DNA from: an uncultured Lachnospiraceae bacterium
GTDB lineage: Bacteria; Bacillota; Clostridia; Lachnospirales; Lachnospiraceae
DNA: 64,000 bases
Assembly: GCA_949840805.1 (NCBI GenBank)
Contig: CATKXR010000007.1
Coordinates: 1 to 64,000 of the forward strand
Reading direction: 5' to 3'
Shown piece by piece: positions 1 through 15,460 of this stretch. Each line of letters begins with the position of its first letter. Positions within the stretch are counted from its first letter, which is position 1. The notes beneath the pieces were generated by a model. The model saw only the letters and a list, made by a program, of their open reading frames with translations, was not told the DNA's origin and made no database searches. The position numbers and the translations under genes are program-made.

Positions 1-41
1 ATAACATAGTTGTATTATCATAAAATAATTATCACTATTTA

Positions 42-83
42 ATTTTAAAAAGCGCTGTGGTTCCAATATGAAATCACAGCGCT
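42..83 (-). terminator. Rho-independent terminator of the small gene at 166-402
   Basis: A 9-bp perfect inverted repeat (AGCGCTGTG at 51-59, CACAGCGCT at 75-83) is followed, reading on the minus strand, by a T-rich run at about 50-42. It lies downstream of the minus-strand gene. Confidence 0.7.
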
Positions 84-165
84 CAAGTTAATTATTCAGT
101 TAGTTTCCCCATCCCGTGAAAAGTAACCCAGGAGCATTCGATAGGACGAGTCAATAGAGATTTTT

Positions 166-402
166 CTACCCTTCCTCTGGTTCACCAAATATCTTACAGT
201 ATTCATCAGCAGACAGCTTTTTCTCTGCCCATTCCCTTGCTTCTTCGTCTGACATAACTTGGAAGTCCTTACCAGCAGTAGCAGAGCCGCCACAATATCT
301 TGCGTAGCTGCTTAAGACACCGCCCTTTCCATAAAGAAAATAGGTTTCCAAAAGTTCAGCCGTTTCCGTGTTATAAGTTTTTCCCTCAAAAATCTTTTTC
401 AT
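166..402 (-). CDS. Small protein of unknown function (78 aa)
   Basis: Not assigned to a named family with certainty. It opens MKKIFEGKTYNTETA, a style of N-terminus I associate with small cargo proteins of Firmicutes conjugative elements and phages, but that is memory, not a search. The start at 402 is chosen because AGAAAGGA lies at a good distance upstream; the longer frame to 444 lacks a site. No signal peptide or membrane segment is visible; the C-terminal half is charged. A terminator follows at 83-42. Immediately upstream on the same strand is a decayed gene (422-669), so this may be the surviving distal gene of a degraded mobile-element operon. Confidence 0.55.
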   Translation of the reverse strand: MKKIFEGKTYNTETAELLETYFLYGKGGVLSSYARYCGGSATAGKDFQVMSDEEAREWAEKKLSADEYCKIFGEPEEG

Positions 403-421
403 AGTATTTTTATCCTTTCTC

Positions 422-669
422 TCAAATCCGGCAGATCTTCTCAATCAGCCGGTCAATGTCTATGTACGTTTCGTCCAAAATTCCGTCACGTCAATCATGC
501 TGCCAGGGACGAGATCACAGCAATTTTCTATCTCTTTGCCTTGCAGCCGATATCCCGTCATGACAAGGGTGTCTCCTATTGGGAAGAAAGATGTTACCAC
601 AAGGTCCTCAATCTGGTAAGAATCATATTCACCGACAAAAATTTCAAAATCAAAGAGGAATGGGATAAG
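422..669 (-). pseudogene. Frameshifted gene remnant, unknown family
   Basis: On the minus strand a protein-like frame runs from about 669 (in-frame stop at 672-670) through residues such as FDFEIFVGEYDSYQ and GDTLVMTGYRLQGKEIENC to about 480. It then needs a frameshift at the A/T run near 477-482 to continue as ILDETYIDIDRLIEKICRI and stop at 424-422. The composition is that of a real acidic protein in both parts, and no intact frame covers it. I therefore read it as a truncated and frameshifted gene. The family is not recognised. A plus-strand frame over the same bases (541-795) is treated as a shadow. Confidence 0.45.
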
Positions 670-750
670 TTAGACCCTGTGACCGGGAAAGTCATGGTGG
701 ATAAGGGTGGTATGTTGCAGACGGAGGAAGCAGAGGTGCAAAAATGCAGG

Positions 751-790
751 CTTCCCCGTTCTGTTTACGGGCAGGGGAAGTCTGTTTTTT
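751..790 (+). terminator. Rho-independent terminator
   Basis: CTTCCCC (751-757) pairs with GGGGAAG (774-780), followed by TCTGTTTTTT to 790. It would stop plus-strand transcription entering from the left and isolates the sugar locus that follows. Confidence 0.7.
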
Positions 791-834
791 GTTGATTTCA
801 GTTGAAAGATAGCTGTTGAAAAACCTTGATTATC

Positions 835-863
835 TTGACAAATTGGCGACTTCTTAATATGCT
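835..863 (+). promoter_or_regulatory. Sigma-A type promoter of the LacI-family gene
   Basis: A perfect -35 TTGACA (835-840) is separated by 17 bp from TATGCT (858-863). It sits 64 bp before the regulator start. No copy of the TGGAA-N4-TTCCA operator found at 2269 and 2325 is visible here, so autoregulation through that site is not supported. Confidence 0.6.
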
Positions 864-926
864 AATTAATAGCAAGTTGTGGATGTGGAGGGTAGTAATT
901 AATTCTGTATTAAGGAGATGAATTTA

Positions 927-1910
927 GTGGCAGGAATTAAAGATGTAGCAAAAAAAGCAGGTGTTGGAGTTGGGACGGTTTCCCGAATGCTGAATGACAG
1001 CGGATATGTTGCAGATGATACCAGAAAAAAAATAGAGATTGCAATGAGGGAACTAAATTATACGCCAAATGAATTGGCTAGAAATCTTTACCACAAAAGA
1101 ACGGGAATTATCGCAGTGCTTGTTCCTAATGCCTCTCACCCCTTTTTTTCGGAGTTTGTAAATTATGCGGAAGCGGAGTTGTATAAAATTGGATATAAGA
1201 TGATGCTTTGCAATACGGAAAAAGCAGACAATGCGGAATTAGAATATTTAGATATGCTGAACCGCCATATTGTCGATGGAGTTATAACGGGAGTTCATTC
1301 CCTTAATGTAGAAGAATATAAAAAAATACGGAAACCAATTGTTGCCTTAGACAGATATCTTGGTGATCGTATTCCGGTGGTAGCAGTTAATCATAAAAAG
1401 GGAGGACATTTGGCAGCAGAGGCTTTAATTAATAGTGGGTGTAAAAAGATTTTGCATTTTATAGGCACAACGGTAGTTGGATCACCATACCACGAGAGAC
1501 ATATTGAATTTGAAAAGGTTATGAGGGAAAATTGTATAAAAACATTATCCTATGAGTTAGAGTGGAATCGTTTTGATACGGAATATTATCAGAGAGTTAT
1601 TAAGGAGGTGTTTTCAAAAAATATTGATGTTGATGGCATATTTGCTGTGGATCGAATGGCTATAGAATGTATGAATGAGATGATACGAAAGCATCGAAAG
1701 ATACCGGAAGATGTGAAACTTGTTGCATATGATGGAACATTTATTACAGAAATTGTTGAGCCAAAGATGACAGCAGTTGTGCAGCCTATCGAGGAGCTTG
1801 CAAAAGAGTCGGTGAAATTACTGATTGATTTGATTAATGGAAAAGAGTATAAAGATAAACGGGTTATTTTAGAAGTGACAGTTAGAAAAGGAGATACAAC
1901 CATTATTTGA
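927..1910 (+). CDS. LacI-family transcriptional regulator
   Basis: A 327-aa LacI/GalR-family repressor. The N-terminal helix-turn-helix (IKDVAKKAGV...TVSRMLN, about residues 3-25) is followed by a periplasmic-binding-protein-like sugar-sensing domain. The GTG at 927 is preferred because AAGGAG (912-917) is 9 nt upstream; the ATG at 918 directly abuts that site. Length is typical of the family. It is transcribed in the same direction as the transporter and hydrolase genes and lies 612 bp upstream of them. The intervening region carries a strong promoter and two palindromes of LacI type, so it most likely controls this locus. The inducer is inferred to be the imported fructoside or its breakdown product. 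Base composition is AT-rich like the rest of the locus. Confidence 0.93.
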   Translation: MAGIKDVAKKAGVGVGTVSRMLNDSGYVADDTRKKIEIAMRELNYTPNELARNLYHKRTGIIAVLVPNASHPFFSEFVNYAEAELYKIGYKMMLCNTEKADNAELEYLDMLNRHIVDGVITGVHSLNVEEYKKIRKPIVALDRYLGDRIPVVAVNHKKGGHLAAEALINSGCKKILHFIGTTVVGSPYHERHIEFEKVMRENCIKTLSYELEWNRFDTEYYQRVIKEVFSKNIDVDGIFAVDRMAIECMNEMIRKHRKIPEDVKLVAYDGTFITEIVEPKMTAVVQPIEELAKESVKLLIDLINGKEYKDKRVILEVTVRKGDTTII

Positions 1911-2026
1911 TAATTAGAATATGATGCCTTGGGAAGAACAAGGGACGATGAAAACGGTTTTCCAAAAATGGTGGATGTTTATATGACTTTGATTTAGATG
2001 AGAATTGTATTATAAAGAGTTAGGGA

Positions 2027-2063
2027 GAATCAAAACCATTGGCTAAACCTATGGTTTTGATTC
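2027..2063. repeat. 13-bp perfect inverted repeat after the LacI-family gene
   Basis: GAATCAAAACCAT (2027-2039) and ATGGTTTTGATTC (2051-2063) form a perfect stem with an 11-nt loop. There is no clear T-run, so it could be a weak terminator or a binding site. The rest of 1911-2226 shows no convincing gene. Confidence 0.55.
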
Positions 2064-2226
2064 CAATCTTGAAAATAGAATATATCTCTTTAATAAGAAT
2101 CTCAAAGATTTGCAGGGATACAAGAATAAATGTTGTACAAAATGTCGAAAAAATAAGCAATATTTGTGTTTTTTGATATAAAAATTGTATATTATGTATA
2201 ATCTTGCTTGAAGTAGAAAAAGCATA

Positions 2227-2254
2227 TTGACATATTTGGCGAAAAGAGTATAAT
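2227..2254 (+). promoter_or_regulatory. Near-consensus sigma-A promoter of the fructan-dianhydride operon
   Basis: TTGACA (2227-2232) and TATAAT (2249-2254) are both perfect hexamers, with a 16-bp spacer. Transcription would start near 2261. Two LacI-type operators follow directly at 2269 and 2325. A promoter this strong needs repression, which fits the regulator next to it. Confidence 0.8.
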
Positions 2255-2268
2255 AAAAGCAACAGATA

Positions 2269-2282
2269 TGGAAAGCGTTCCA
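2269..2282. promoter_or_regulatory. Candidate LacI-family operator O1
   Basis: TGGAAAGCGTTCCA is a near-perfect palindrome of the 14-bp LacI/GalR operator type, centred about 14 bp after the predicted transcription start. It differs from a CcpA cre box because the central CG step is out of register. Confidence 0.65.
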
Positions 2283-2324
2283 CATCTAAATATTGGCAGC
2301 GGAGGATATTTTTTTTAAAGAATG

Positions 2325-2338
2325 TGGAACGGGTTCCA
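2325..2338. promoter_or_regulatory. Candidate LacI-family operator O2
   Basis: TGGAACGGGTTCCA has perfect 6-bp arms (TGGAAC/GTTCCA). Its centre is 56 bp from that of the first operator, so one tetramer could bridge both, or it could act as a roadblock. Confidence 0.65.
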
Positions 2339-2522
2339 TAGAAGAAGGAAGGTGAATAAAATGAAGTAAATATTATGGAAATATGATCCTCAAATTATGA
2401 AATAGAAGCTAAAATTGAAAATTTAAAGCCAGTTTCTATTGATTAGAGGATAGCTATTCTCAAGCAGTAAGATTGTATTTAACTAAATCATTAAAAAGAG
2501 AGTCAGTGAGGAAGGAGAAAAG
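2339..2522 (+). other. Leader region of the sugar operon with a two-codon frame
   Basis: After the second operator, a good ribosome binding site (GGAAGG at 2349-2354 region) precedes ATG AAG TAA at 2361-2369, a two-codon frame. The following bases read as interrupted short frames with no gene that I recognise. This may be a decayed gene start or a leader. The true binding-protein gene has its own AAGGAG before 2523. Confidence 0.35.
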
Positions 2523-3746
2523 ATGAAGAACAAAATTTTTAGTGTTTTACTTGTATCGACTATGTTGACAGCTTGTGTTACAGGGTGCGGAGCAAAGAAC
2601 GAAGAAGGCGGTTCGGCAAAAAACAGTATTACGATATTAGTAGAAAGTGGTTCTCCTGCAGAGGATTTAGCCAACAATACGGCAGCCGATTTTGAGGCGG
2701 AAACAGGATGTAAAGTGATTGTGGATGCAGTGGCTTATACTGGAATGTATGACAAACTTTCTACAGAGATTAAGGCAGGTGCCGCGGCACATGATGTTGC
2801 ATGTATGGATTTTGTATGGCTGGCGGCGTTTGCCGATGCTATTGAGCCACTGAAGGATGTAGATACCAGCGACTTTCTTCCAACATTGGAAAATAGTGGT
2901 ACAATAGATGGAAATCTTTTGGGATATCCGATGTGGGTTAATGTAAAGACATTAATCTACAGAAAGGACCTGATTGCAGAAGAAAAAATTCCAAGTACAT
3001 GGGAGGAGTATCAAAAACTTGCAGAAGAAATGGCATCATCAGATATGTATGGGACGACAGTATTTGGAAGCGGGTCTGACGCAGTGTGTTCATTTCTCGA
3101 TTTTGCATGTCAGGCAGGCGCCCAAGGTCTGATTTTTGATAAAGACGGAAATGTAAATATTACTGAACAGCCATATGTAGACGCATTGAATTTTATGATT
3201 GAAACAGCAGGTGCAGAGTACACACCATCCGATTCACTGGCAACGGCTGCAACAGAATCACAAGAACTTTTTACTAATGGAAAAGTGGCAATGCAGTTAA
3301 ATTGGAGTCATCAATATCCGGCAGCGGTAAAAGCCCTTGGAGCTGATAAAGTAGGGTGCGCTCCTATGATTGCGGGTGATGCAGGAATTGGTGCTACTAC
3401 CGGTCCATGGTATGAATGTGTGATGAAGAATTCAAAAAATAAGGAAATGGCACAAAAATATGTAGAGTACATGTATGAACATAATGAAGATTATATGAAT
3501 TTAACTTTGAAAATTGCAGGAAGAACATCAGTATATGAGCAGGCTGGTAAAGAATCAGGAAATGAACACACGACAGCAGTTTTGGATACTTTGGCAGCAT
3601 CACAGTCGCAGGCCAGACCTATGGTTTCTACATGGGCACAGATTGAGGAGGTGCTTACTAAGGTTGTAGAATCTTGTCTTGGAGGAGCAGATGTAAATGA
3701 AACTTTAGCATCTGCAAAAGAAGAAATTGAGGCAATCGGAAAATAG
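2523..3746 (+). CDS. ABC transporter sugar-binding lipoprotein (family 1)
   Basis: A 407-aa extracellular solute-binding protein of the carbohydrate (CUT1) class. It has a lipoprotein signal peptide: basic MKNK, a hydrophobic stretch and a lipobox ending in TGC at about residues 20-22, so the mature protein would be anchored by Cys22. The mature part has the usual family 1 features, including a FEAETGCKV-like region near the N-terminus. AAGGAG lies a few bases before the ATG. It is the first gene of the importer, followed 30 bp later by the two permeases. The substrate cannot be read from the binding protein itself; from the GH32 and GH91 enzymes downstream I infer an inulin-derived di- or oligosaccharide, possibly difructose anhydride III. 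Confidence 0.9.
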   Translation: MKNKIFSVLLVSTMLTACVTGCGAKNEEGGSAKNSITILVESGSPAEDLANNTAADFEAETGCKVIVDAVAYTGMYDKLSTEIKAGAAAHDVACMDFVWLAAFADAIEPLKDVDTSDFLPTLENSGTIDGNLLGYPMWVNVKTLIYRKDLIAEEKIPSTWEEYQKLAEEMASSDMYGTTVFGSGSDAVCSFLDFACQAGAQGLIFDKDGNVNITEQPYVDALNFMIETAGAEYTPSDSLATAATESQELFTNGKVAMQLNWSHQYPAAVKALGADKVGCAPMIAGDAGIGATTGPWYECVMKNSKNKEMAQKYVEYMYEHNEDYMNLTLKIAGRTSVYEQAGKESGNEHTTAVLDTLAASQSQARPMVSTWAQIEEVLTKVVESCLGGADVNETLASAKEEIEAIGK

Positions 3747-3776
3747 TGTTTATTAGAAAATGAGGAGGTAGCTAGG

Positions 3777-4661
3777 ATGAGGTTGATTTCAAGGAAAACT
3801 TTATTACTATTTTTCCTGCCGGGAGCGATTTTCATGGGAGCATTTCTGATATATCCTATCATTACGATGGTTATCGATAGCTTTTATAAAATCGGAATTA
3901 CTGGAAACAGGACATTTATTGGGCTGGAGAATTATATTCATGCATTTACGGCAGGAGGTTTTTTAAAGCAACTGAAAAATACGCTTCTCTATATTGTGAT
4001 TGCAGTAGGGGTTGAAACAGCCATAGGATTATTGTTTGCACTCTTTTTTGAATTAAACTACAAAGGAAGCAAAATTATCCGTTCGTTGATGATGACACCT
4101 CTGATGATTGCTCCTCTGGTGGCAGGCCTTACTTGGAAGTTAATGATGAGTTCCAGTTTCGGGATTGTGAATGAGTTGCTGACAAGAATAGGCTTTTTAT
4201 CAAATTCAAGTGATATTTTGTGGCTGGCAGATGAAAAATGGTCTTTGTTGGCCTGCTGCATTGCAGATATCTGGCTGACCACACCATTTATGATGCTGAT
4301 GATTTTGGCGGGGCTTCAGGGATTAGATAGTAGCATGTTGGAAGCGGCCAAAATTGACGGTGCAAATATGCTGCAGCAAGTTTTCTATATTAAGGTTCCG
4401 GTAATAAAACCAGTGCTTTTAACGGCATTATCCGTAAGAATTATTGATGCGGCCAGAACATTTGACATCATTTGGGCAATGACAGAAGGCGGGCCTAATA
4501 GTTCGTCAGAAACAATTAGCATTATTATTTATAAGACATTGACACGGTATAATGATGCGGGATATGCCAGTGCTATGGCGATCATTTTTATTGTGGTGCT
4601 TGTAGCTTTTACCTTAATATTCATGCAGAGTCTTTGGAATCCAAAGAAAAAAATAGGTTAG
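3777..4661 (+). CDS. ABC sugar transporter permease, MalF/UgpA type
   Basis: A 294-aa integral membrane permease with about six hydrophobic segments. The EAA-type cytoplasmic loop, which docks the ATPase, is at EAAKIDGANMLQQVFYIKVP (around residues 190-210). GAGGAGG precedes the ATG at 3777. It pairs with the second permease and the binding protein to form a CUT1 importer. No nucleotide-binding subunit is encoded anywhere in this locus, so a shared MsmK/MalK-type ATPase from elsewhere in the genome is presumably used, as is known for many Firmicutes CUT1 systems. Confidence 0.9.
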   Translation: MRLISRKTLLLFFLPGAIFMGAFLIYPIITMVIDSFYKIGITGNRTFIGLENYIHAFTAGGFLKQLKNTLLYIVIAVGVETAIGLLFALFFELNYKGSKIIRSLMMTPLMIAPLVAGLTWKLMMSSSFGIVNELLTRIGFLSNSSDILWLADEKWSLLACCIADIWLTTPFMMLMILAGLQGLDSSMLEAAKIDGANMLQQVFYIKVPVIKPVLLTALSVRIIDAARTFDIIWAMTEGGPNSSSETISIIIYKTLTRYNDAGYASAMAIIFIVVLVAFTLIFMQSLWNPKKKIG

Positions 4662-4678
4662 ATTGGAGGGGCGGAAAA

Positions 4679-5509
4679 ATGAAAGGAAAATGGGAAATTG
4701 GAAAAAAGATAGGCATCAGTTTATCAGTTATTCTTACTGTTTTCTGGCTTATCCCATACATATATGTAATTTGCTGTTCATTTAAGCCTGGTTCGGAAGT
4801 AGTTGCCGTGCCGCCAAAGTTTTTCCCGCAGATATTTTCTGTAGAGAATTTTAGTGGATTATTTGAGAGGATGGATGCAGCTGGTTTCTTAATAAATAGC
4901 CTGACAGCGGCTGTGTGCAGTACAGTGATTGCGTTAATACTGGGTTCTCTTGCAGCTTATGCCATTCAGCGTTCCGGAGCAAAACTTTCAACCGTATTGG
5001 TAGTGTTAGTGTTATGCCTTAAAATGATTCCTACATCCAGTATAGTTGTTCCAATCTATGAGCTGATTTGTGAAATTGGATTATATGATACGAAAATCGC
5101 GTTGATTATTGTATATGCGGCAATCAATATGCCTTTTGTTATGTGGACTATGCTAAGTTTTTATGAGGGAATTCCGACAACATTGGATGAGGCGGCTTAC
5201 ATGGATGGGGCTTCCAGCTTACAAACTTTTAAAAAGGTTATTTTGCCAATCTGCAAACCAGGACTTGCAACTGCATTTATTTTCACGCTGTTTCTTGCAT
5301 GGAATGATTTTCTCGTATCATTATTGCTGACAAGTACAAATGCAAAAACATTTACGGTTGGATTGGCAGGATTTTTGTCTGCATATAATTTGGATTTAGG
5401 GCCTATGTGTGCAGGGGCGTTTTTATTCAGTTTTCCGGTCATGGCGATTTCTCTTGCGGCTCAAAGGTATATTGTGCAGGGAATGACTGCGGGGGCAGTA
5501 AAAGGATAA
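4679..5509 (+). CDS. ABC sugar transporter permease, MalG/UgpE type
   Basis: A 276-aa partner permease with six predicted membrane segments. The EAA loop (DEAAYMDGASSLQTFKKVILP) lies around residues 170-190. The ATG at 4679 is chosen because GGAGGGG lies about 8 bp upstream. The longer frame starting at 4634 overlaps the previous gene and lacks a site. The gene begins 17 bp after the first permease stops and is followed within about 20 bp by the GH32 gene, so all are likely one transcript. Confidence 0.9.
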   Translation: MKGKWEIGKKIGISLSVILTVFWLIPYIYVICCSFKPGSEVVAVPPKFFPQIFSVENFSGLFERMDAAGFLINSLTAAVCSTVIALILGSLAAYAIQRSGAKLSTVLVVLVLCLKMIPTSSIVVPIYELICEIGLYDTKIALIIVYAAINMPFVMWTMLSFYEGIPTTLDEAAYMDGASSLQTFKKVILPICKPGLATAFIFTLFLAWNDFLVSLLLTSTNAKTFTVGLAGFLSAYNLDLGPMCAGAFLFSFPVMAISLAAQRYIVQGMTAGAVKG

Positions 5510-5527
5510 GATTAAGTGGAGGAAACT

Positions 5528-7012
5528 ATGTCAAGAGAGTTGATGATAGCGAATATCAATAAGGCTCAAAAGGAGATAGAACAGAAAAAAGATACTGTAA
5601 AAATAGGGAAGATGCGCCAGCATTATCATTTTATGCCTCAGACGGGATGGCTGAATGATCCAAATGGATTGATATATTTCAAAGGAAAGTATCATTACTT
5701 TTATCAGTATAATCCATACTATGGATATTGGGATTATATGCACTGGGGACATGCGGTTAGCGTGGATCTTCTTCATTGGGAATATCTCCCATTGGCACTT
5801 GCTCCAAGTGAAACCTATGATGATTATATAAGAGGTGGATGTTTTTCCGGAAGTGCCATAGAACATGATGGGAAACTGTTTTTAATATATACTGGCTCAT
5901 CAAATCAGGGAAACGGTGTTGAACAGACACAGTGTATTGCATATAGCGAAGATGGAATACATTTTGAGAAATATAAAGGGAATCCTGTATTGACAGCTCC
6001 GAAAGGAATAGCTGCAGATCAGTTCAGAGATCCAAAGGTCTGGAAACACGAAGATAAATATTACATGGTGTGTGGTGCAAATTGCAACAATATGGCTCAA
6101 GCATTGCTCTATTGCTCAGAAGATTTATTTCATTGGAATTTTGTTAATGTATTGGCAGAAAGCAGGGGCGAATGGGGATATATGTGGGAATGTCCTGATT
6201 TTTATAGGTTAGGTGACAAATATGTACTCACATTTTCTCCGATGGGGGCAGGAGAACATACGGCAGTATATTTTGTGGGAGATTTTGATTATGGTACAGG
6301 GAAATTTTTTCACCAAATATGTGGAGAGATAGATTGGGGGCTTGATTATTATGCTCCCCAGTCCTTCCTGACACCAGATGGAAGAAGGATTGTTGTAAGC
6401 TGGGCGAATGAATGGGACTGGATGCCATTTTGGAAAGATTGGGGGCCAACATATAAAGAGAATTGGTGCGGGTTTTTTAATATTCCCAGAGAAGTACGAA
6501 TTATGCAGGATAATACTTTGCAGTTTGTACCTATAAAGGAATTAGAAGCATTAAGGGAAGACAAATACAAAATGGATTGTTTTACTGTTCGTGAAGCAGC
6601 AATGCAATTGACAGCAGGGGATGGTATTTCTTTTGAAATGAAAATGAAAATTGATTTGGAAAAAACAAATGCCGAGAAGCTAGAATTGGACTTGCGTTGT
6701 GGTAATAATAAGAAGGTTATCTGTATGTTTGATTTTATAAATGGACAGATGTATGTGGAACGGAGCAATTCAGATGGATGGAGTCAAGGAACTTCAAGGA
6801 GTACATTGTTTTTAAAAGGAAAGAAGGAACTGGATATTCATATTTTCTCTGATCAGAGTTCTATTGAGATTTTTGCAAATCAATATCAGAATAATCATGC
6901 AAACAATATTTTTGCTGATAATACACAAAATCAAATAGAAATCTATGCGCATGGAGGAAAAGCGGTAATTAAAGAATATGAAGCCTATAGTATGCAAGAG
7001 TGTTTTCTATAG
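5528..7012 (+). CDS. GH32 beta-fructosidase, cytoplasmic (candidate inulobiose hydrolase)
   Basis: A 494-aa glycoside hydrolase family 32 enzyme. All three catalytic signatures are visible: WLNDPNG with the nucleophile Asp44, RDP with Asp168, and ECP with the acid/base Glu221. The C-terminal part (from about residue 340) has the expected beta-sandwich. No signal peptide is present, so it acts inside the cell on sugar delivered by the importer. The ATG at 5528 follows GTGGAGG with 5 nt spacing; the upstream GTG is part of that site. Family members hydrolyse sucrose, sucrose-6-phosphate, inulin or levan oligosaccharides. With an ABC importer rather than a PTS and with GH91 next door, the best guess for its substrate is inulobiose or short fructans, giving free fructose. 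Sucrose-6-phosphate hydrolase is less likely because no PTS gene is present. Confidence 0.92.
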   Translation: MSRELMIANINKAQKEIEQKKDTVKIGKMRQHYHFMPQTGWLNDPNGLIYFKGKYHYFYQYNPYYGYWDYMHWGHAVSVDLLHWEYLPLALAPSETYDDYIRGGCFSGSAIEHDGKLFLIYTGSSNQGNGVEQTQCIAYSEDGIHFEKYKGNPVLTAPKGIAADQFRDPKVWKHEDKYYMVCGANCNNMAQALLYCSEDLFHWNFVNVLAESRGEWGYMWECPDFYRLGDKYVLTFSPMGAGEHTAVYFVGDFDYGTGKFFHQICGEIDWGLDYYAPQSFLTPDGRRIVVSWANEWDWMPFWKDWGPTYKENWCGFFNIPREVRIMQDNTLQFVPIKELEALREDKYKMDCFTVREAAMQLTAGDGISFEMKMKIDLEKTNAEKLELDLRCGNNKKVICMFDFINGQMYVERSNSDGWSQGTSRSTLFLKGKKELDIHIFSDQSSIEIFANQYQNNHANNIFADNTQNQIEIYAHGGKAVIKEYEAYSMQECFL

Positions 7013-7052
7013 TTTTCATAAAATAAAAAGTTGCTTAAAGGAGGATTTATTT

Positions 7053-8408
7053 ATGGCAAGTAAAAATTATTATGATGTGACAGAATGGAAGGTTGGAGAT
7101 CCGTATAAGGATATTGGAGAGGTAATCAATAGCATTATTGCGGATATTAAAAGCAGACAGTCAGAAACGGATGTGAATGATGGAGGAAAGCCAGGGGCGC
7201 TCATCTATATTCCGGCAGGAGATTATCATCTTGTTACACAAGTAGTAATAGACATAAGCTATTTGAAAATAATGGGTTCGGGACATGGTTTTACATCTTC
7301 CAGTATTCGGTTTAATACACCGGAGAGTGAGTGGAAAGATTGGCACGAATTGTGGCCAGGAGGAAGTCGTATAATTGTAGATATTTCTTCTAAACCGGGC
7401 GAAGAGGAACAAATGGGGGCTGCATTTTACATCAAGAGAGATGGAAATCCTCGAATCAGTTCGGTAGAGTTTTCGGATTTTTGCATTGATGGGCTGCACT
7501 TTTTGGATGACGGTTCAGGAGAAGCAAAGCCGGAAAATACATATACAAATGGGAAGACGGGAATTTATATTGCAAGTGCTCAAGATTCATTTCGGGTTAC
7601 GGGTATGGGAATGGTATATTTAGAGCATGGAATTGTTATCTATGATGCGGATGCACTGGATATTCACGATAATTTTATTGCGGAATGTGGAAACTGTATT
7701 GAACTGCGAGGGTCAGGACAGGCTTCAAAGGTTACAGATAATTTGATCGGAGCTGGTTATAAGGGGTATTCGATTTATGCACAAAATTTTGGTGGACTTT
7801 TGGTTGCAGCAAACAATATTTTTCCGCGAGGTGCAAGCAGCGTATATTTTTCAGGTGTGACACGTTCTATTATTACAAGCAATAGGTTGCATTCTTTCTA
7901 TCCGGGAATGGTAGTGTTAGAAGGAAATAGTTCAGAGAATATGGTTTCATCAAATCATTTTCTGCGGACACGTGAACCATGGCCGCCTATGCAGGCACAT
8001 AATAATGGATTGGACGACTTGTATGGAATTGTTTATATAAGCGGTAGCAATAACTCTGTAATTGCTAATCATTTTTCAGAAATTATTGATAGACAGTATA
8101 TTGTACCGGAAGGAGTGATGCCTGTAATCATTCATATTGTTTCTGGCAATGGTAATTATATTTCTGATAATCATATTGTTGCAACTGCGGAATCATCGGG
8201 GGTATCTGTTGATAGGATTTCCTCTTGCTTCTCTACACAAGTAGCAAATCTAATGGTTGGAGAAAAAACAGAAATACTTGGGGTGATGACCGTGATGATA
8301 GAACAAGGATCCGTAGGGAATACGATTCTTGATTCAGGAACAGAATATCAGGTTGAAATGAATAAATCGTTAAATGCGTTTAGAGCCACACCGGTTCCCG
8401 AAATGTAA
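7053..8408 (+). CDS. GH91 family protein: inulin fructotransferase / difructose-anhydride hydrolase type
   Basis: A 451-aa right-handed beta-helix protein closely resembling the inulin fructotransferases (DFA-III- or DFA-I-forming) of family GH91, with hallmark stretches such as DVNDGGKPGA, GSGHGFTSSSIRFN, LHSFYPGM and AECGNCIEL. Asp206 and Glu217 have the 11-residue spacing I recall for the catalytic pair of the Bacillus enzyme. Unlike the secreted Arthrobacter enzymes there is no signal peptide: the ATG at 7053 follows AAAGGAGG, and the in-frame upstream extension is not signal-like and overlaps the GH32 gene. Intracellular members in gut bacteria have been described as hydrolysing difructose anhydride III to inulobiose, which the adjacent GH32 could split. 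A depolymerising role on inulin inside the cell is unlikely. The exact dianhydride (I or III) cannot be read from the sequence. Confidence 0.88.
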   Translation: MASKNYYDVTEWKVGDPYKDIGEVINSIIADIKSRQSETDVNDGGKPGALIYIPAGDYHLVTQVVIDISYLKIMGSGHGFTSSSIRFNTPESEWKDWHELWPGGSRIIVDISSKPGEEEQMGAAFYIKRDGNPRISSVEFSDFCIDGLHFLDDGSGEAKPENTYTNGKTGIYIASAQDSFRVTGMGMVYLEHGIVIYDADALDIHDNFIAECGNCIELRGSGQASKVTDNLIGAGYKGYSIYAQNFGGLLVAANNIFPRGASSVYFSGVTRSIITSNRLHSFYPGMVVLEGNSSENMVSSNHFLRTREPWPPMQAHNNGLDDLYGIVYISGSNNSVIANHFSEIIDRQYIVPEGVMPVIIHIVSGNGNYISDNHIVATAESSGVSVDRISSCFSTQVANLMVGEKTEILGVMTVMIEQGSVGNTILDSGTEYQVEMNKSLNAFRATPVPEM

Positions 8409-8451
8409 ATAGAAAGATAATGCTGTTTAAAGTGCTGGTAATCATTTACTT

Positions 8452-8499
8452 ACAACTTTCCTCGTAGTGCTCTGCGAGGAAAGTTGTCTTTTGTATTTT
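8452..8499 (+). terminator. Strong terminator of the sugar operon
   Basis: A 13-bp perfect stem (ACAACTTTCCTCG at 8452-8464, CGAGGAAAGTTGT at 8475-8487) is followed by CTTTTGTATTTTT. It ends the operon that starts near 2261. Confidence 0.9.
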
Positions 8500-8521
8500 T
8501 ATATAGAAATTAAGCGAAAGT

Positions 8522-8766
8522 GTGGCAGAGAGGAACATGGAAATCAAGGGCAATGCCCAAGGCGGAGAAAATGGCAGGATTGTAACAGATAAGGGCAAAA
8601 ATAAACTATTTTTCTACGATGACTGTATTATAATGATATCTGTAAAGTCCATGGCGGATTTATGGAAGCAAAGAAATGGAACGGGAAATATTACTGCTTG
8701 GTAATCCCAGGCTATATGAAATTTCTGGTTAGAGTTACTGAAACCGGTATTTACAGATATGTTTGA
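8522..8766 (+). pseudogene. Possible decayed ORFs, unknown
   Basis: Two short overlapping frames are present: 8522-8704 (60 codons, ATG-less upstream site) and 8662-8766 (34 codons, containing KWNGKYYCLVIPGYMKF and VRVTETGIYRY). The second has a protein-like composition but is truncated, and neither has a convincing ribosome binding site. I read the stretch as the debris of a gene. The family is not recognised. The rest of 8500-8850 shows nothing else. Confidence 0.2.
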
Positions 8767-8850
8767 CTGTATGTCTTTTCCAAATTTATTGGTGAGGGTA
8801 CGGCGCTATCGCCATTGTATCCTGCCTTTCGTTATGAAAAGATGCGCATA

Positions 8851-8895
8851 AAAAGGCCACCAAAACCAGTTACTTCCCGTTTGGTGGTCTTTTCA
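8851..8895. terminator. Bidirectional terminator
   Basis: AAAAGGCCACCAAA (8851-8864) and TTTGGTGGTCTTTT (8880-8893) form a stem flanked by A-run and T-run, so it can work on both strands. On the minus strand it would end the small gene at 8940-9227. Confidence 0.75.
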
Positions 8896-8939
8896 AAATC
8901 AGGCAAATTTTGATATGCCTGGATCTGTTTTATCTAAAG

Positions 8940-9227
8940 TCAGGCTTCCTTAGAAAGAAGGGCCAGGATTTCTTCCGCAGACTTTCCTGATTCCTCAATA
9001 GCCTTTAACAGTTTGGCCTTATTTTCCCTCATAGCCTTTTTAGCGGCAGCGGCGGCGGCTTTCTTTTCCTTCATGGCAGCGGCTTTTTCAGCCTTTAATT
9101 GCTCTTTGTAGGCGATTTTTAATTCCTCTTTTGCGGCTTTGAGATCGGATTCCATTTTCATGATTTTCTCATGCAGCTTCAAAGCCTTACCGGTATAAAC
9201 GATTTCCTTTTTTACTCCTCTTGGCAT
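8940..9227 (-). CDS. Small Ala/Lys-rich coiled-coil protein, unknown function
   Basis: A 95-aa protein that starts MPRGVKKEIVYTGKALKLHEK and continues as a long predicted coiled coil (about residues 15-75) with strong Ala/Lys/Glu bias. AAGGAGG lies 8 nt before the ATG at 9227, so translation is well supported. Similar short proteins with this opening are common in Clostridia, to my recollection without known function; the basic helix suggests nucleic-acid or protein contact, but that is speculation. It is flanked by a terminator on its 3' side and by another small minus-strand frame upstream. Confidence 0.7.
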   Translation of the reverse strand: MPRGVKKEIVYTGKALKLHEKIMKMESDLKAAKEELKIAYKEQLKAEKAAAMKEKKAAAAAAKKAMRENKAKLLKAIEESGKSAEEILALLSKEA

Positions 9228-9273
9228 TTGGACAGCCTCCTTGAATGAATATAGTTAAAAATTGATAAAATAA

Positions 9274-9510
9274 TCATACAATAACTTGCTGCTGTTGTAA
9301 AGGAGTGGTTTGGAAAAGAGGAGGAAGAGTCTCATAGTCTTTCCTTAGATGTTTACTTATCAGGCCTTTATCCAGAGCCTGCTGTATCGTTTCCTTTAAC
9401 TTCTCTTCCAGAATATCTTCTGTAATACGTGTTTTCCTGAATTTTGTGAGAAGGCTGGGATCGATCATTTTTGCTTTCAGTTCCAGAACCAGAAAAAATT
9501 TGTATGCCAT
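9274..9510 (-). CDS. Small hypothetical protein
   Basis: A 78-codon frame with protein-like composition (ITEDILEEKLKETIQQALDKG, about residues 30-50) located 46 bp upstream of the coiled-coil gene on the same strand. No clear ribosome binding site is seen before 9510; an internal ATG at 9468 is an alternative start (64 aa). The C-terminus is Gln-rich (LQQQQVIV). It could be a genuine small gene or the tail of a decayed one. No family recognised. Confidence 0.35.
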   Translation of the reverse strand: MAYKFFLVLELKAKMIDPSLLTKFRKTRITEDILEEKLKETIQQALDKGLISKHLRKDYETLPPLFQTTPLQQQQVIV

Positions 9511-9845
9511 GTCTGTCTGGGCGCTGCTGATCCGGGGTTCATCGGAATGGAAAAGGCTGGCGCTCTCCCGGCAGGAAGAAGGTGGAAGGCCTTTGGAGGA
9601 GAATAGAATAAGGCGTGATTTTTTGGAGCTTCCAGCGGGATGTTTACGGAGATTTTATCTTGTGATCTGGATTTGCTTGAGGAACTGTTTGGGGAGGCAG
9701 GGGATTAACTTAATTAACTGCAAACTGCAAATATCTTGCGAAAATTTATGCATAATGCTATACTTTTCATTATGAATTATATTTACAGGATTTCAAGCTA
9801 TCCGGTATATGGGGATATAAAATGTGTGGGAGGAAGGCGGAAAGA

Positions 9846-10496
9846 ATGGAGAGATATCGCATTTTGTATGAAGGCGGCACAGGGGAGCTGACAGAGAAAA
9901 AATCGCGGTTTATCGCCACTACAAGGCCGGTCCGGTCGGAGGAAGAGGCGGCGGCTTTTGTGGAGGAGATGAAAAAGAAGTACTGGGACGCGCGCCATAA
10001 CTGTTATGCTTATGTGATCGGCGACAGGGGGCAGGTGAACCGATGCAGCGACGACGGGGAGCCGTCCCAGACGGCAGGCAGGCCTATGCTGGACGTGCTT
10101 TTGGGGGAGGAGATCCGTGATATCTGCGTGGTGGTCACGCGGTATTTTGGGGGCGTGCTTTTGGGAACAGGAGGGTTGGTGCGTGCATATTCGGGCGCCG
10201 TCCGGGAAGGGTTAAAACAGAGCGTGGTGGTGGAGAAGATTCCGGGCAGGCGGCTTTGTGTCATGACGGATTACAATGGAATCGGGAAGCTCCAGTATGT
10301 GGCCGGACAGATGGGGATACGGATACTGGATACGGAATATTCGGATCAGGTGAAGGCGATGGTGATGGCTCCTCTGGACCAGGCGGAGCAGTTTATCGCC
10401 CAGGTGACGGAACGGACGGCCGGAAAGGCTCTTATTGCGGATGAAGGAACCCTGTACTTCGGGATGGTACGGGGGGAGATGGTGCTGTTTCCGTAA
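9846..10496 (+). CDS. yigZ: YigZ/IMPACT family protein
   Basis: A 216-aa protein of the IMPACT (YigZ, UPF0029) family. The N-terminal domain (about residues 10-125) carries the conserved KKSRFIA region, the WDARHNCYAYVIG motif and the DDGEPSQTAGRPML signature, then TRYFGGVLLGTGGLVRAYS. A shorter C-terminal ferredoxin-like domain follows. Family members are linked to translation control or proline peptide binding; the exact bacterial role is unsettled. The ATG at 9846 is chosen over 9822 because the GGAGG/AAGGCGG stretch lies before it and the family normally begins at this point. The gene stands alone, before the typA promoter. Confidence 0.9.
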   Translation: MERYRILYEGGTGELTEKKSRFIATTRPVRSEEEAAAFVEEMKKKYWDARHNCYAYVIGDRGQVNRCSDDGEPSQTAGRPMLDVLLGEEIRDICVVVTRYFGGVLLGTGGLVRAYSGAVREGLKQSVVVEKIPGRRLCVMTDYNGIGKLQYVAGQMGIRILDTEYSDQVKAMVMAPLDQAEQFIAQVTERTAGKALIADEGTLYFGMVRGEMVLFP

Positions 10497-10529
10497 GGTC
10501 CTGTTTTTTGGAGAGAAATGAATATCTGC

Positions 10530-10558
10530 TTGCATTCTTCCCCTGAAAATGCTATATT
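10530..10558 (+). promoter_or_regulatory. Sigma-A type promoter for typA
   Basis: TTGCAT (10530-10535), 17-bp spacer, TATATT (10553-10558). The predicted start near 10565 places a hairpin with a T-run inside the typA leader. Confidence 0.5.
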
Positions 10559-10579
10559 TATATGCTGTAGATTACCAGG

Positions 10580-10625
10580 AGCTAAGGACTGGCCGTGTTC
10601 CTAAGGACAGTTCCTTAGCTTTTTT
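10580..10625 (+). terminator. Terminator-like hairpin directly before the typA ribosome binding site
   Basis: AGCTAAGGA (10580-10588) pairs with TCCTTAGCT (10612-10620) and is followed by TTTTTT ending at 10625. The GGAGG for typA starts at the next base. It either terminates yigZ or attenuates the typA leader. Confidence 0.75.
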
Positions 10626-10636
10626 GGAGGAGAACA

Positions 10637-12460
10637 ATGAAGAGAGAAGATGTAAGAAACGTAGCCATTATTGCCCATGTGGATCACGGGAAGACCACAT
10701 TGGTAGATGAATTGTTAAAAAGCAGCGGCGTATTCCGGGCCAACCAGGAAGTAGTGGAGCGGGTGATGGATTCCAATGACATTGAGCGGGAGCGGGGGAT
10801 TACCATCCTTTCAAAAAATACCGCCGTTTTTTACAAGGACACCAAGATCAATATTATTGACACTCCCGGCCATGCCGATTTCGGAGGGGAGGTAGAACGG
10901 GTCCTGAAGATGGTCAACGGTGTCATCCTGGTGGTGGACGCCTATGAAGGGCCTATGCCCCAGACAAAATTCGTGCTGAAAAAAGCCCTGGAGCTGGAAC
11001 TGCCGGCCATCGTCTGCATCAATAAGATCGACAGGCCGGAGGCCAGGCCTATGGAGGTCATAGATGAGGTGCTGGAGCTGTTCATGGATCTGGATGCTTC
11101 CGATGAGCAGCTTGACTGTCCTTTTGTGTTTGCTTCGGCCAGGGCAGGATTTGCAAAGAAAGCCTTAGAGGACCCGGAGGAAGATATGCGGCCTCTGTTC
11201 GAGACGATTGTGGACTATATTCCGGCCCCGGAGGGGGACGAGACGGCCAATACCCAGATGCTTGTCAGCACTATTGATTATAATGAATATGTGGGGCGGA
11301 TCGGGATCGGGAAGATCGACAACGGGACGGTCCGTGTGAACCAGGAGTGTGTGATCGTCAATCACCACGACCAGGAGAAGCTTCGCAAGGTGAAGATCGG
11401 AAAGCTCTACCAGTTCGACGGTTTAAACAGGGTGGAGGTGGCCGAAGCCACAGTGGGAGATATTGTGGCCGTGTCCGGGATCACGGATCTGCATATCGGG
11501 GATACGATCTGTTCCCCGGAGAACCCGGAGGCGATTCCCTTCCAGAAGATTTCCGAGCCGACCATCGCCATGAATTTTATGGTCAATGACAGCCCGCTGG
11601 CAGGGCAGGAAGGCAAATATGTCACATCCCGCCATATCCGGGAGAGGCTGTTTAAGGAGCTGAACACGGATGTGAGCCTGCGGGTGGAGGAGACAGACTC
11701 TCCGGACTGTTTTAAGGTGTCGGGAAGAGGAGAACTGCATCTTTCGGTATTGATTGAAAATATGCGCCGGGAGGGATATGAGTTTGCGGTAAGCAAGGCG
11801 GAGGTCCTGTACCGGTATAATGAACGGAACCAGAAGTTGGAACCCATGGAGCTGGCTTATGTGGATGTGCCGGAGGAATTTACCGGCACGGTTATCCAAA
11901 AGCTGACATCCAGAAAAGGCGAACTGCAGGGAATGAGCCCGGTCAGCGGCGGATATACCCGGTTGGAGTTTTCTATTCCTTCCAGGGGGCTTATTGGCTA
12001 CCGGGGAGAATTTCTGACAGATACCAAGGGAAACGGAATCATGAATACCATTTTTGATGATTATGCTCCCTATAAGGGGGATCTGGCTTACCGGAAAACA
12101 GGTTCCCTGATTGCCTATGAGAGCGGCGAGACTATCACCTACGGTCTTTTTAATGCCCAGGAGAGAGGGCTTTTGTTCGTAGGGCCGGGAGAAAAGGTGT
12201 ATTCCGGTATGGTGATCGGGCAGAATCCCAAGGCCGAGGACATAGAGGTGAACGTCTGCAAGACGAAGAAACTGACCAACACCCGCTCTTCCAGTGCGGA
12301 CGAGGCCCTGAAGCTGGTTCCCAAAAAGGAGATGAGTTTAGAGCAATGCCTGGAATTTATCGACACGGACGAGCTTTTGGAGGTAACGCCCAAATCTTTG
12401 AGAATACGGAAAAAAATCCTGGACCCCACGATGCGAAAAAGGGCTTCTTTTAAGAAATAA
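10637..12460 (+). CDS. typA: Translational GTPase TypA/BipA
   Basis: A 607-aa ribosome-associated GTPase of the TypA/BipA family, within the usual 600-615 range. The GTPase domain shows G1 AHVDHGKTT (residues 13-21), switch region RERGIT, G3 DTPGHADFG and G4 NKIDRPEA. Elongation-factor-like domains II, III and V and the BipA-specific C-terminal domain (ending KKILDPTMRKRA) follow. It binds the ribosome and helps 50S assembly and stress adaptation. GGAGGAG lies 7 nt before the ATG. A hairpin with T-run abuts that site, and a convincing terminator follows the gene. Confidence 0.98.
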   Translation: MKREDVRNVAIIAHVDHGKTTLVDELLKSSGVFRANQEVVERVMDSNDIERERGITILSKNTAVFYKDTKINIIDTPGHADFGGEVERVLKMVNGVILVVDAYEGPMPQTKFVLKKALELELPAIVCINKIDRPEARPMEVIDEVLELFMDLDASDEQLDCPFVFASARAGFAKKALEDPEEDMRPLFETIVDYIPAPEGDETANTQMLVSTIDYNEYVGRIGIGKIDNGTVRVNQECVIVNHHDQEKLRKVKIGKLYQFDGLNRVEVAEATVGDIVAVSGITDLHIGDTICSPENPEAIPFQKISEPTIAMNFMVNDSPLAGQEGKYVTSRHIRERLFKELNTDVSLRVEETDSPDCFKVSGRGELHLSVLIENMRREGYEFAVSKAEVLYRYNERNQKLEPMELAYVDVPEEFTGTVIQKLTSRKGELQGMSPVSGGYTRLEFSIPSRGLIGYRGEFLTDTKGNGIMNTIFDDYAPYKGDLAYRKTGSLIAYESGETITYGLFNAQERGLLFVGPGEKVYSGMVIGQNPKAEDIEVNVCKTKKLTNTRSSSADEALKLVPKKEMSLEQCLEFIDTDELLEVTPKSLRIRKKILDPTMRKRASFKK

Positions 12461-12470
12461 ACCGAAAAAT

Positions 12471-12535
12471 CGCAGATATTGATAAAAATGTCGCCATTTG
12501 GCGAACGAAATTCTTCATATCTGCGTTTTCTTTTT
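12471..12535 (+). terminator. Terminator after typA
   Basis: CGCAGATAT (12471-12479) pairs with ATATCTGCG (12517-12525), enclosing a second perfect hairpin TCGCCATTTGGCGA, and TTTTCTTTTT follows. Confidence 0.85.
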
Positions 12536-12694
12536 CATAGACATATTAAGAGCAGAGGAAGGACTGCGCTGTCAGTTATGTCCGGGTCGGCTAAAAATGA
12601 TCCGGTGTCCTGGCAAATCCCGCGGTCCTGCCTGGCGCTGTGCCGTGAACCGGTAAAGTAAATGAATATGAAAAAGGAAGAGGAGAGAAGTACC

Positions 12695-13336
12695 ATGGCA
12701 GAAAAAGTAATTGAAAATAACAAAGTAAGTGTAATTGGAGAAATTGTTTCCGGATTTACCTTTAGCCATGAAGTGTTTGGGGAAGGTTTTTATGTGGTGG
12801 ATGTGGCGGTCAGCCGTTTAAGCGAGCAGGCAGACATTATTCCTCTCATGATCTCCGAGAGGCTGATCCATGTGCAGGAGGATTATCGGGGCTGTACGGT
12901 GGAGGCCATCGGGCAGTTCCGTTCTTATAACCGGCATGAAGGGGTGAAAAACCGTCTGGTGCTGTCCGTATTTGTGCGGGAGATCAACTTTATGGAAGAA
13001 TTTACCGACTACACCAAGACCAATCAGATTTTTCTGGACGGCTATATCTGTAAAGCGCCCATATACAGAAAGACTCCCCTGGGCAGGGAGATTGCGGATC
13101 TTCTGCTGGCAGTAAACCGTCCTTACGGTAAATCAGACTATATTCCCTGCATTGCCTGGGGGCGAAATGCCCGTTTTGCCTCCGGCTTTGAGGTGGGAAC
13201 CCGCGTCCGTGTCTGGGGCAGGGTTCAGAGCCGTGAGTACACGAAAAAACTTTCCGAGACGGAATGTGAGAAGCGGGTGGCCTATGAGGTGTCGATCAGC
13301 AAGCTGGAGTGCGGGGAGGAAGACATGCAGGGGTGA
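12695..13336 (+). CDS. SSB-like protein with two OB-fold regions
   Basis: A 213-aa protein whose C-terminal half (about residues 110-205) looks like a single-stranded-DNA-binding OB fold: an FLDGYICKAP start, REIADLLLAVNR, an IPCIAWGRNA strand and a RVWGRVQSREY strand, as in SSB. The N-terminal half (about residues 8-100) also fits an OB-like pattern. It lacks the acidic DDDIPF tail that bacterial SSB uses to recruit partners, so it is not the housekeeping SSB; the C-terminus ends near EEDMQG. The ATG at 12695 has AGGAG about 9 nt upstream; an earlier ATG at 12662 has none. It precedes a CobO-like gene by 138 bp. A DNA-binding or repair-related role is inferred. Confidence 0.75.
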   Translation: MAEKVIENNKVSVIGEIVSGFTFSHEVFGEGFYVVDVAVSRLSEQADIIPLMISERLIHVQEDYRGCTVEAIGQFRSYNRHEGVKNRLVLSVFVREINFMEEFTDYTKTNQIFLDGYICKAPIYRKTPLGREIADLLLAVNRPYGKSDYIPCIAWGRNARFASGFEVGTRVRVWGRVQSREYTKKLSETECEKRVAYEVSISKLECGEEDMQG

Positions 13337-13470
13337 CAGTCCGCAAGGGATCGGGACCGTTGCAACGTGGGAGAGGGATGCGGCAGGAAAAATACGAAAA
13401 CTGCTGCAGACTGCCAAAGGGTAAGCCGCTTTTGGGAAGAAAAAACGGCTGACCGGAATACTGAGGAGCA
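13330..13470 (+). ncRNA. Possible divergent cobalamin riboswitch
   Basis: The 138-nt leader of the CobO-like gene has elements in cobalamin-riboswitch order: a GGTGAC-like start, GGGACCGTTGCAACG, a CTGCTGCAG segment, GGGTAAGCC, GGGAAG, and ACCGGAATACTG at the 3' end. The most conserved box (CCCGCNACTGT-like) is not recognisable. The call rests on position and partial motifs only and needs a covariance-model scan. Confidence 0.28.
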
Positions 13471-13474
13471 AAAA

Positions 13475-13981
13475 ATGAATACAGGTAAGATTGAGATCAT
13501 ATACGGCGAAGGGGCCGGAAGGACGGCAATGGCTTTTGGAAGAGGGCTGGAGGCTTTGGCCAGGCATAAAAAAGTGGTGGTCATCCGGTTTTTAAAGGGA
13601 AGCCAGAACGAGGAGAAGCCGGAAGTGCTGAAGCGTCTGGAACCGGAGATGAATGTATTTTGTTTTGAAAAGGCCCATAGCAGGTTTGACGAGCTTACGG
13701 AACAGGAGAAGCTGGAGGAGTCCATCAATATCCGCAACGGCGTCAATTATGCCAGGAAGGTGCTGGCCACAGGGGAATGTGACCTGTTGATTTTAGAGGA
13801 GATCTTAGGGCTTTTGGAACAGGAGATTTTAATGGAGCAGGAACTTTTGCAGATTCTGGAAAGCAGGGATTCGGCGGATGTGATTCTTACAGGGCGTATG
13901 CTTCAGGAAAATGGCCTTACGGCTGCTGCCGACCGGATTGAGAGGATAACCCGGATCAGCGGCGGGCGGGAAGGGGAGTGA
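13475..13981 (+). CDS. CobO/BtuR-like P-loop protein with degenerate nucleotide-binding loop
   Basis: A 168-aa protein that resembles ATP:corrinoid adenosyltransferase (CobO/BtuR/CobA type), about the right length. The framework is present: a first strand IEIIYGEGAGRTA, an FLKG motif after the second strand, a NYARKVLATGECDLLILEEIL region corresponding to the family's DLVILDEI strand, and a DVILTGR strand. However, the P-loop is GEGAGRTA where the family has GxGKGKTT, so the key lysine is replaced by arginine and the motif is altered. It may be an inactive or repurposed homologue. The ATG at 13475 is preceded by TGAGGAGC; the longer frame to 13367 lies in the putative leader. A promoter for the lysine riboswitch follows directly after its stop. 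Confidence 0.7.
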   Translation: MNTGKIEIIYGEGAGRTAMAFGRGLEALARHKKVVVIRFLKGSQNEEKPEVLKRLEPEMNVFCFEKAHSRFDELTEQEKLEESINIRNGVNYARKVLATGECDLLILEEILGLLEQEILMEQELLQILESRDSADVILTGRMLQENGLTAAADRIERITRISGGREGE

Positions 13982-13997
13982 AGGCGGAAAATTTCTG

Positions 13998-14026
13998 TTG
14001 ACAAGACGGAAGGATAATGCTAGTAT
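13998..14026 (+). promoter_or_regulatory. Sigma-A promoter of the lysine-riboswitch/dapA transcript
   Basis: TTGACA (13998-14003), 17-bp spacer, TAGTAT (14021-14026). Transcription would begin near 14033, just at the 5' end of the riboswitch. Confidence 0.75.
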
Positions 14027-14032
14027 TTTAAT

Positions 14033-14222
14033 TTAGAAGTAGAGGTTGCGTGAAGCATAAGTAGCCTGCCGGATGTTCCAGAGACAAATGAAGGCAGGCG
14101 AAAGGGCGGACGCCGAAGGCAGGTGCAGGCTGGCTGTATCTGCCTGGGCGCAGGGTGAAGAATCCTGCGACTGTCATCCGGGACCGGGTGGAGTGCTTAA
14201 GGTCGGATGGAGAGCTGCTGAA
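14033..14222 (+). ncRNA. Lysine riboswitch (L box)
   Basis: The conserved L-box elements occur in order: AGAGGTTGCG, AAGTAGCC, GCGAAAGGGCGGACGCCGAAGG (split here by position 14099-14120), GACTGTCAT and GGAGTGCTTA, closed by GAGCTGCTG pairing with the 5' AGTAGAG region. It senses lysine and controls dapA, the first committed gene of lysine/diaminopimelate synthesis. A terminator follows at 14253. Confidence 0.9.
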
Positions 14223-14252
14223 AAAGGATTATAATCATATAATAATTTTTCA

Positions 14253-14281
14253 GGGAGCCTTTCCGACAGGTTCCCTTTTTG
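14253..14281 (+). terminator. Expression-platform terminator of the lysine riboswitch
   Basis: GGGAGCC (14253-14259) pairs with GGTTCCC (14269-14275), followed by TTTTTT. Binding of lysine would favour this hairpin and reduce dapA readthrough. The 126 bp between it and dapA hold no other gene. Confidence 0.8.
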
Positions 14282-14407
14282 TGTGGAGTTTTGCCGAAAA
14301 CGGGGAACATGCCGGCACGGCAAATCATCTGGCCCACGGGCATAAACCGCTTTTGACAAAGGGATTTTTACAGTACAGGCAGACAATGTATCTAAGGAGG
14401 ACGGAAT

Positions 14408-15292: not shown

Positions 15293-15460
15293 AATATTTG
15301 TATCATAATGGAATGGTCCGGATGGTTTTGTTTTTCCGGAGATGAGAAGCTGTCCGTAAAGATATTTGTGAGGATAACTATTACGTTAATGCAACAATGT
15401 ATCGGATATTGCTGACGGCGGATTTTTGATGAATACGGATCTGAGAGGATGGAGATACTT

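Follow-up and report, generated by a model that had tools for sequence, protein, structure and literature searches.

What sugar is the five-gene cassette near the start of this contig built to use? The stretch analyzed, hereafter the window, comprises positions 1 to 64,000 (64,000 nucleotides, forward strand) of contig CATKXR010000007.1 from an uncultured Lachnospiraceae bacterium (GenBank assembly GCA_949840805.1). The initial annotation proposed that positions 2227–8408 form a difructose anhydride (DFA) utilization locus with a LacI-type regulator, an ATP-binding cassette (ABC) importer, and two cytoplasmic enzymes of families GH32 and GH91. The locus is real and complete, with regulator, strong promoter, a pair of operator-like palindromes, sugar-binding protein (SBP), two permeases, GH32, GH91, and terminator, and it is very probably a DFA III utilization operon of the DFA-IIIase type, the genes being observed here and the pathway read from homologues. 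Its features are as follows.

918–1910, plus strand: LacI-family regulator (PF00356, 8.5e-20; PF13377, 5.7e-21)
2227–2254, plus strand: sigma-70-like promoter, TTGACA-16-TATAAT, 12/12 consensus match
2269–2282, no strand: operator-like palindrome O1, TGGAAAGCGTTCCA, 14 nt past the −10 box (palindrome and motif scan)
2325–2338, no strand: operator-like palindrome O2, TGGAACGGGTTCCA, 56 bp from O1 (palindrome and motif scan)
2523–3746, plus strand: lipoprotein-type SBP of the ABC importer (SBP_bac_8/SBP_bac_1; PF13416, 2.4e-29)
3777–4661, plus strand: ABC sugar permease A (BPD_transp_1, PF00528, 9.4e-15)
4679–5509, plus strand: ABC sugar permease B (BPD_transp_1, PF00528, 1.2e-19)
5528–7012, plus strand: predicted cytoplasmic GH32 beta-fructofuranosidase (N domain PF00251, 3.9e-97; PF08244, 7.7e-21)
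7053–8408, plus strand: predicted cytoplasmic GH91 DFA-III hydrolase, EC 4.2.1.178 (PDB 5zks match; beta-helix Pfam match)
8193–8288, plus strand: codons of the lid region (residues ~381–412), marking DFA-IIIase against inulin fructotransferase (PDB alignments)
8452–8487, plus strand: intrinsic terminator with a 16-pair stem (terminator scan)

As initially annotated, regulator, SBP, both permeases, GH32, and GH91 are all present with strong family matches. The regulator gene lies upstream of the 2227–8408 range, which opens at the TTGACA of the promoter and closes at the GH91 stop codon, yet is part of the locus described. Purine-rich Shine-Dalgarno sequences precede the likely starts ATG 4679, ATG 5528, and ATG 7053, so that permease B, GH32, and GH91 are shorter than their listed open reading frames (ORFs); that of permease B begins at 4634.

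The label GH91 was given because of a match to the DFA-IIIase among PDB chains. Of all chains, the best match is 5zks (residues 1–448, 651 bits, E 1e-194), the AcDFA-IIIase of Arthrobacter chlorophenolicus A6, a member of a different phylum; the alignment runs end to end, lid included. Family searches also returned beta-helix matches, including one named “Beta helix repeat of Inulin fructotransferase.” The inulin fructotransferases score lower (9j4i, 374 bits; 2inu, 360; 8hsn, 283), and the alignments with 9j4i and 2inu stop at residue 388, 2inu adding a 0.3-bit stretch from residue 414. With the truncated DFA-IIIase chain 5zky, the alignment is interrupted at the lid segment and returns at residue 413. 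The lid region, whose boundaries at residues ~381–412 are our own reading of these alignments, is thus present and aligned with 5zks. Removal of the lid turns AcDFA-IIIase into a fructotransferase, and the lid is credited with DFA III hydrolysis (PMC11538131, cited here and below from part of its text). The catalytic motifs previously attributed to the enzyme were borne out: D200 (7650–7652) and E211 (7683–7685) are invariant across eight aligned GH91 sequences and match, by sequence context (ADAL, DNFIAEC), D207 and E218 of the A. aurescens DFA-IIIase, mutants of which are inactive, and all members of the family are stated to keep this Asp/Glu pair (PMC4640833, likewise cited in part). The protein is also 71% identical to BpDFA-IIIase of Blautia parvula (L069, NZ_CP084061.1). 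By scores, identity, and lid, it belongs to the DFA-IIIase branch and not to the inulin fructotransferases.

The GH32 protein passes the TIGR01322 cut-off (386.2 against 356.4 bits). Both its N and its C domain are present, and the functional motifs of the family, WLNDPNG, FRDP, and WECPD, were read by eye in the translation, in line with the catalytic motifs previously noted for this enzyme; it would act as an inulobiose hydrolase. Neither enzyme has a hydrophobic N-terminus, in line with the proposed lack of signal peptides: expressed as the highest 15-residue Kyte-Doolittle mean within the first 45 residues, the two candidate starts gave −0.40 and −0.21 for GH32 and 0.57 and 0.46 for GH91, far below the 2.30 of the SBP, whose hydrophobic N-terminus is followed by VTGC, presumably a lipobox. 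An intracellular GH91 had been singled out as notable, a surprise that does not hold because the Arthrobacter DFA-IIIase is described as intracellular (PMC11538131) and, in the accessible text of PMC4640833, no signal peptide was found in the DFA-IIIase studied there; the cytoplasmic form is normal in this branch. Family matches across the cassette include no ATPase gene. The genome has four TOBE_2 ATPase genes, all on contigs other than that of the window, and the importer may share an ATPase coded elsewhere.

Taken together, the SBP and two permeases, with an ATPase coded elsewhere, would bring DFA III into the cell, where the cytoplasmic DFA-IIIase would open it to inulobiose in a reversible step that by itself would favor DFA III. 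GH32 would then cleave inulobiose to two fructoses, pulling the reaction forward, and a kinase encoded at another place would channel fructose into glycolysis. The operon would be kept off by a LacI-type repressor of its own, bound to two operators just downstream of the promoter, until a sugar of the pathway releases it. DFA III is the putative substrate of this importer, and the inducer and the kinase are putative as well.

GH91, GH32, and an ABC importer occur together here as they do in the DFA-III utilization clusters of Blautia, which comprise a GH91 DFA-IIIase, a GH32, and an ABC transporter (PMC11538131). In the cluster of B. parvula NBRC 113351, the order is the same, and besides GH91, identities to the window are 69% for GH32, 79% for SBP, 89% for permease A, and 88% for permease B. 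BpDFA-IIIase opens DFA III to inulobiose, and the route from DFA III through inulobiose to fructose was followed in vitro, the GH32 assayed for the second step being that of Bifidobacterium dentium and not the cluster's own; import by the Blautia transporter is a hypothesis in that paper too. Growth on DFA III was reported for three of five Blautia strains, those with both the cluster and fructose metabolism, B. hansenii (cluster, no fructose metabolism) degraded DFA III without growing, and B. wexlerae JCM 31267 (no cluster) neither grew on nor degraded it (PMC11538131). The proposed sequence, in which a dianhydride is imported, opened by GH91, and cleaved by GH32, is supported by this homologous cluster and, given the published work and the identity to L069, is right as far as homology tells and not new. 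By analogy, DFA III rather than DFA I is the likely substrate, since DFA I was neither attacked by BpDFA-IIIase nor degraded by any of the five Blautia strains (PMC11538131). The B. dentium DFA I synthase/hydrolase also acts on a difructose dianhydride (PMC8605356, cited in part), but it belongs to another enzyme family, GH172 (assignment in PMC11538131), and its dianhydride is DFA I.

A scan of genome contigs, in which the B. parvula cluster was one of the finds, yielded 65 loci, including Paenibacillus, several Bacillaceae, Blautia, Faecalicatena, Serratia, Klebsiella, and Kluyvera. When neighboring ORFs were clustered, all three ABC parts were present in 49 of the 65, a major facilitator superfamily (MFS) transporter in five, and neither in 11; GH32 was found somewhere in the fetched stretch at 44 loci and a PfkB or ROK kinase at 19, all of these being lower bounds for the genomes because no stretch reaches further than 9 kb from GH91 and some stop where the contig does.

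Several points weigh against a DFA III operon. For this organism the pathway is predicted from its genes, and the putative operators are a pattern in the sequence. The best family fit of the GH32 is to ScrB, a broad family, and inulobiose may not be its only substrate; the genome holds four GH32 N-domain matches in all. Among the 11 loci with neither a full clustered ABC set nor an MFS transporter, L047 and L053 hold some ABC parts, L092 and L093 are partial GH91 matches, and L036, L039, L040, L063, L073, L085, and L096 have no clustered importer. BpDFA-IIIase also attacks nystose (GF3), GF4, and inulin (PMC11538131), so the importer's ligand could be a linear fructo-oligosaccharide. Extended to the whole operon, this would make linear inulin-type oligosaccharides (inulobiose, nystose, and longer) its main substrates, with GH91 acting on imported chains and DFA III a mere intermediate, and the reported equilibrium of DFA III to inulobiose, 59.3:40.7 in favor of DFA III (PMC11538131), speaks for it as well. 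We nevertheless consider it improbable: B. hydrogenotrophica, which has the cluster, used DFA III and did not degrade 1-kestose (PMC11538131), so its DFA III system is no general short-fructan system, and the lid that the same paper credits with DFA III hydrolysis is kept in the GH91 of the window.

Far less credible still is a GH91 that works as an inulin fructotransferase, with DFA III or DFA I as its product. Such enzymes share family and fold with the GH91 protein, and 9j4i, 2inu, and 8hsn also match it, but with the scores given above against 651 bits for the DFA-IIIase; fructotransferases such as 2inu and 9j4i, which make DFA III from inulin, are without the lid, and the DFA III-forming ones are secreted, whereas the protein of the window has a lid and no signal peptide. 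The preferred reading is thus a DFA III operon of the published kind in another genus, well supported and ordinary.

The control region was compared with that of related loci. O1 and O2 are 14-bp palindromes of the form TGGAA-N4-TTCCA downstream of the promoter, a pattern present at 12 places in the genome (reversed control pattern, 3), only those at 2269 and 2325 being close together. Upstream regions of the window and of 19 loci with an SBP at least 76% identical were considered, 20 in total and 19 after exclusion of L075, whose SBP has only 161 bp in front of it. In 13 of the 19, the number of TGGAA-N4-TTCCA sites within 500 bp is exactly two. First-order Markov resampling, repeated 500 times, gave a mean of 0.008 and at most 1 where 26 sites were observed, although the 13 are not fully independent, since L032 is 94–95% identical in DNA to the window and L081 and L082 are both Hespellia. 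Spacing in the 13 was 50–89 bp (54–57 in 10). The first operator starts 12–15 nt past the −10 box in the window and five loci and 39–41 nt past it in five others; a promoter match of 10/12 to 12/12 lies at most 70 nt upstream of it in 10 of the 12 related loci, the exceptions, L071 and L091, reaching only 8/12 in that interval.

At 11 of the 65 loci, the cassette is preceded by a LacI 70–96% identical to that of the window and, with the window's own counted, 12 of the 13 TGGAA-type regions have this LacI; the exception to this pairing is L082, with no LacI in the fetched stretch. The other six regions (L033, L065, L066, L069, L074, and L086) have a different LacI, 24–26% identical and on the opposite strand, no TGGAA-N4-TTCCA, and nine TGAAA-N4-TTTCA sites spread over all six (mean expected, 0.016; none in the 13 TGGAA-type regions). 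The TGGAA motif was taken from the window; the TGAAA motif was picked after the scan had been seen, and its count is post hoc. L035 (SBP 52%), scanned and left uncounted, has one TGAAA-N4-TTTCA site. Two LacI regulators are thus seen with the Lachnospiraceae cassette, and a different motif goes with each. B. parvula differs from the window in this respect: its adjoining LacI is on the opposite strand and 26% identical, its motif is TGAAA-N4-TTTCA, and farther downstream there are two more LacI genes (35 and 34%). In the window, the LacI protein would act as a repressor at O1 and O2 as putative operators. A CcpA-type reading of O1 and O2 was rejected, neither site fitting the catabolite-responsive element (cre) consensus by eye.

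A word search of the main text of PMC11538131 (figures outside the search) for LacI, regulator, operator, and repressor found none of them, and literature searches, to which most subscription papers were closed, returned no paper on regulation of the cassette. Regulation is the part not found in print, and the pairing of regulator with operator is a modest, testable addition; the operator pair also offers a sequence signature for recognizing regulated copies. The picture of the pathway itself is unchanged by this locus. Together with its relatives, it adds named genomes of Faecalicatena, Hespellia, and candidate Mediterraneibacter to Blautia as likely users of DFA III. DFA III is an industrial-scale product, also arises in caramelized food, and is discussed as a prebiotic (PMC11538131).

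A second sigma-70-like match (11/12) lies at 2173–2202. Terminators had been placed at each end: the downstream one (8452–8487) is good, but the upstream site at 767–785 is weak, with six pairs (10 such sites in 1–10500 against 6.6 expected). A hairpin after lacI (2027–2063) has no T-run, and a terminator-like match on the minus strand (2288–2263) overlaps O1. No RNA switch was found before the operon at Rfam gathering thresholds; the only match in the window is a lysine riboswitch (RF00168, 14032–14225, plus strand, 110 bits).

Is the cassette mobile? A GH91 match (E ≤ 0.001) was present in 12 of 397 sampled genomes of the family, this one included: nine nearly full length (L022 with an in-frame stop), one partial at a contig edge, and two short fragments. 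Within the genus it was found in two of 24 genomes, again including this one. The other, L032, matches window positions 1–20000 only over 747–8547 (94–95% identity), so the cassette has different surroundings in the two genomes; it also carries a PfkB kinase gene directly after GH91, where the window has none. In the present genome, the best match to a PfkB kinase borne by such a cassette is 37% identical, on another contig. Transfer of the cassette as a unit fits this rarity within the genus and the different surroundings. Low G+C does not mark the cassette edges: it is 0.31–0.41 in 1-kb windows over the cassette, starts earlier (0.41 at 1–1000), and continues to ~9.5 kb; of the 12 windows from 9501 on, 10 are at 0.50–0.54 and the remaining two at 0.47 and 0.496. 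As for traces of integration, there is no tRNA in the window and no direct repeat of at least 16 nt joining the 747–8547 edges, with no integrase search made. Whether the Lachnospiraceae cassette is a movable unit with near-constant enzymes and importer, in which the regulator is swapped together with its operators to give two regulatory editions, seems to us an evenly balanced matter; in one edition a repressor would sit at paired TGGAA-N4-TTCCA sites, which follow the promoter at a mutual distance of mostly 54–57 bp, and might hold the DNA in a loop.

Identity to the GH91 of the window is 72–79% in Paenibacillus and Bacillaceae and 67–78% in Lachnospiraceae, whereas permease identity is mostly 45–58% in the former and 83–91% in the latter (higher in the congener L032, lower in L035). 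An enzyme this similar across groups whose permeases diverge suggests transfer between groups, or strong constraint. Plasmid records gave a GH91 match in 85 of 72,556, 70 of them Rhizobium. A viral origin was rejected: when viral contigs were scanned with the GH91 alignment, 42 stretches matched by pattern and none encoded a relative.

Several relatives are unusual in themselves. On Citrobacter freundii plasmid pA-NDM-202212 (L031, 6486–13253), resistance genes and insertion sequences are annotated a few kb away from genes for MFS, GH91, carbohydrate kinase, GH32, and LacI. Muricomes intestini (L036, 8180–10347) keeps GH91 with only the C-terminal half of GH32 and no adjoining cassette importer, as if truncated. 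In Metabacillus niabensis (L040, 9001–17605), the arrangement is different, GH91 being followed by two GH32 matches (28–29%) and a 39% LacI relative. Both Hespellia proteins (L082, 8977–10299; L081, 6492–7787) match only to residue 415–416 of 451, the C-terminal end after the lid being absent or divergent. In L075 (4751–6937), a 729-aa frame directly after GH32 encodes both a putative esterase (PF00756) and a complete GH91 and may be a real fusion or an assembly product.

In the window, positions 1–127, where the contig starts, recur at 100% identity on two other contigs of this genome, C78 and C36, and the assembly may have broken at this repeat. At 8940–9227 on the minus strand, there is a 95-aa Lys/Ala-rich frame without a Pfam match; contig C63 holds a copy of its DNA at 90%, and three other genomes of the genus have relatives of 82–88%.

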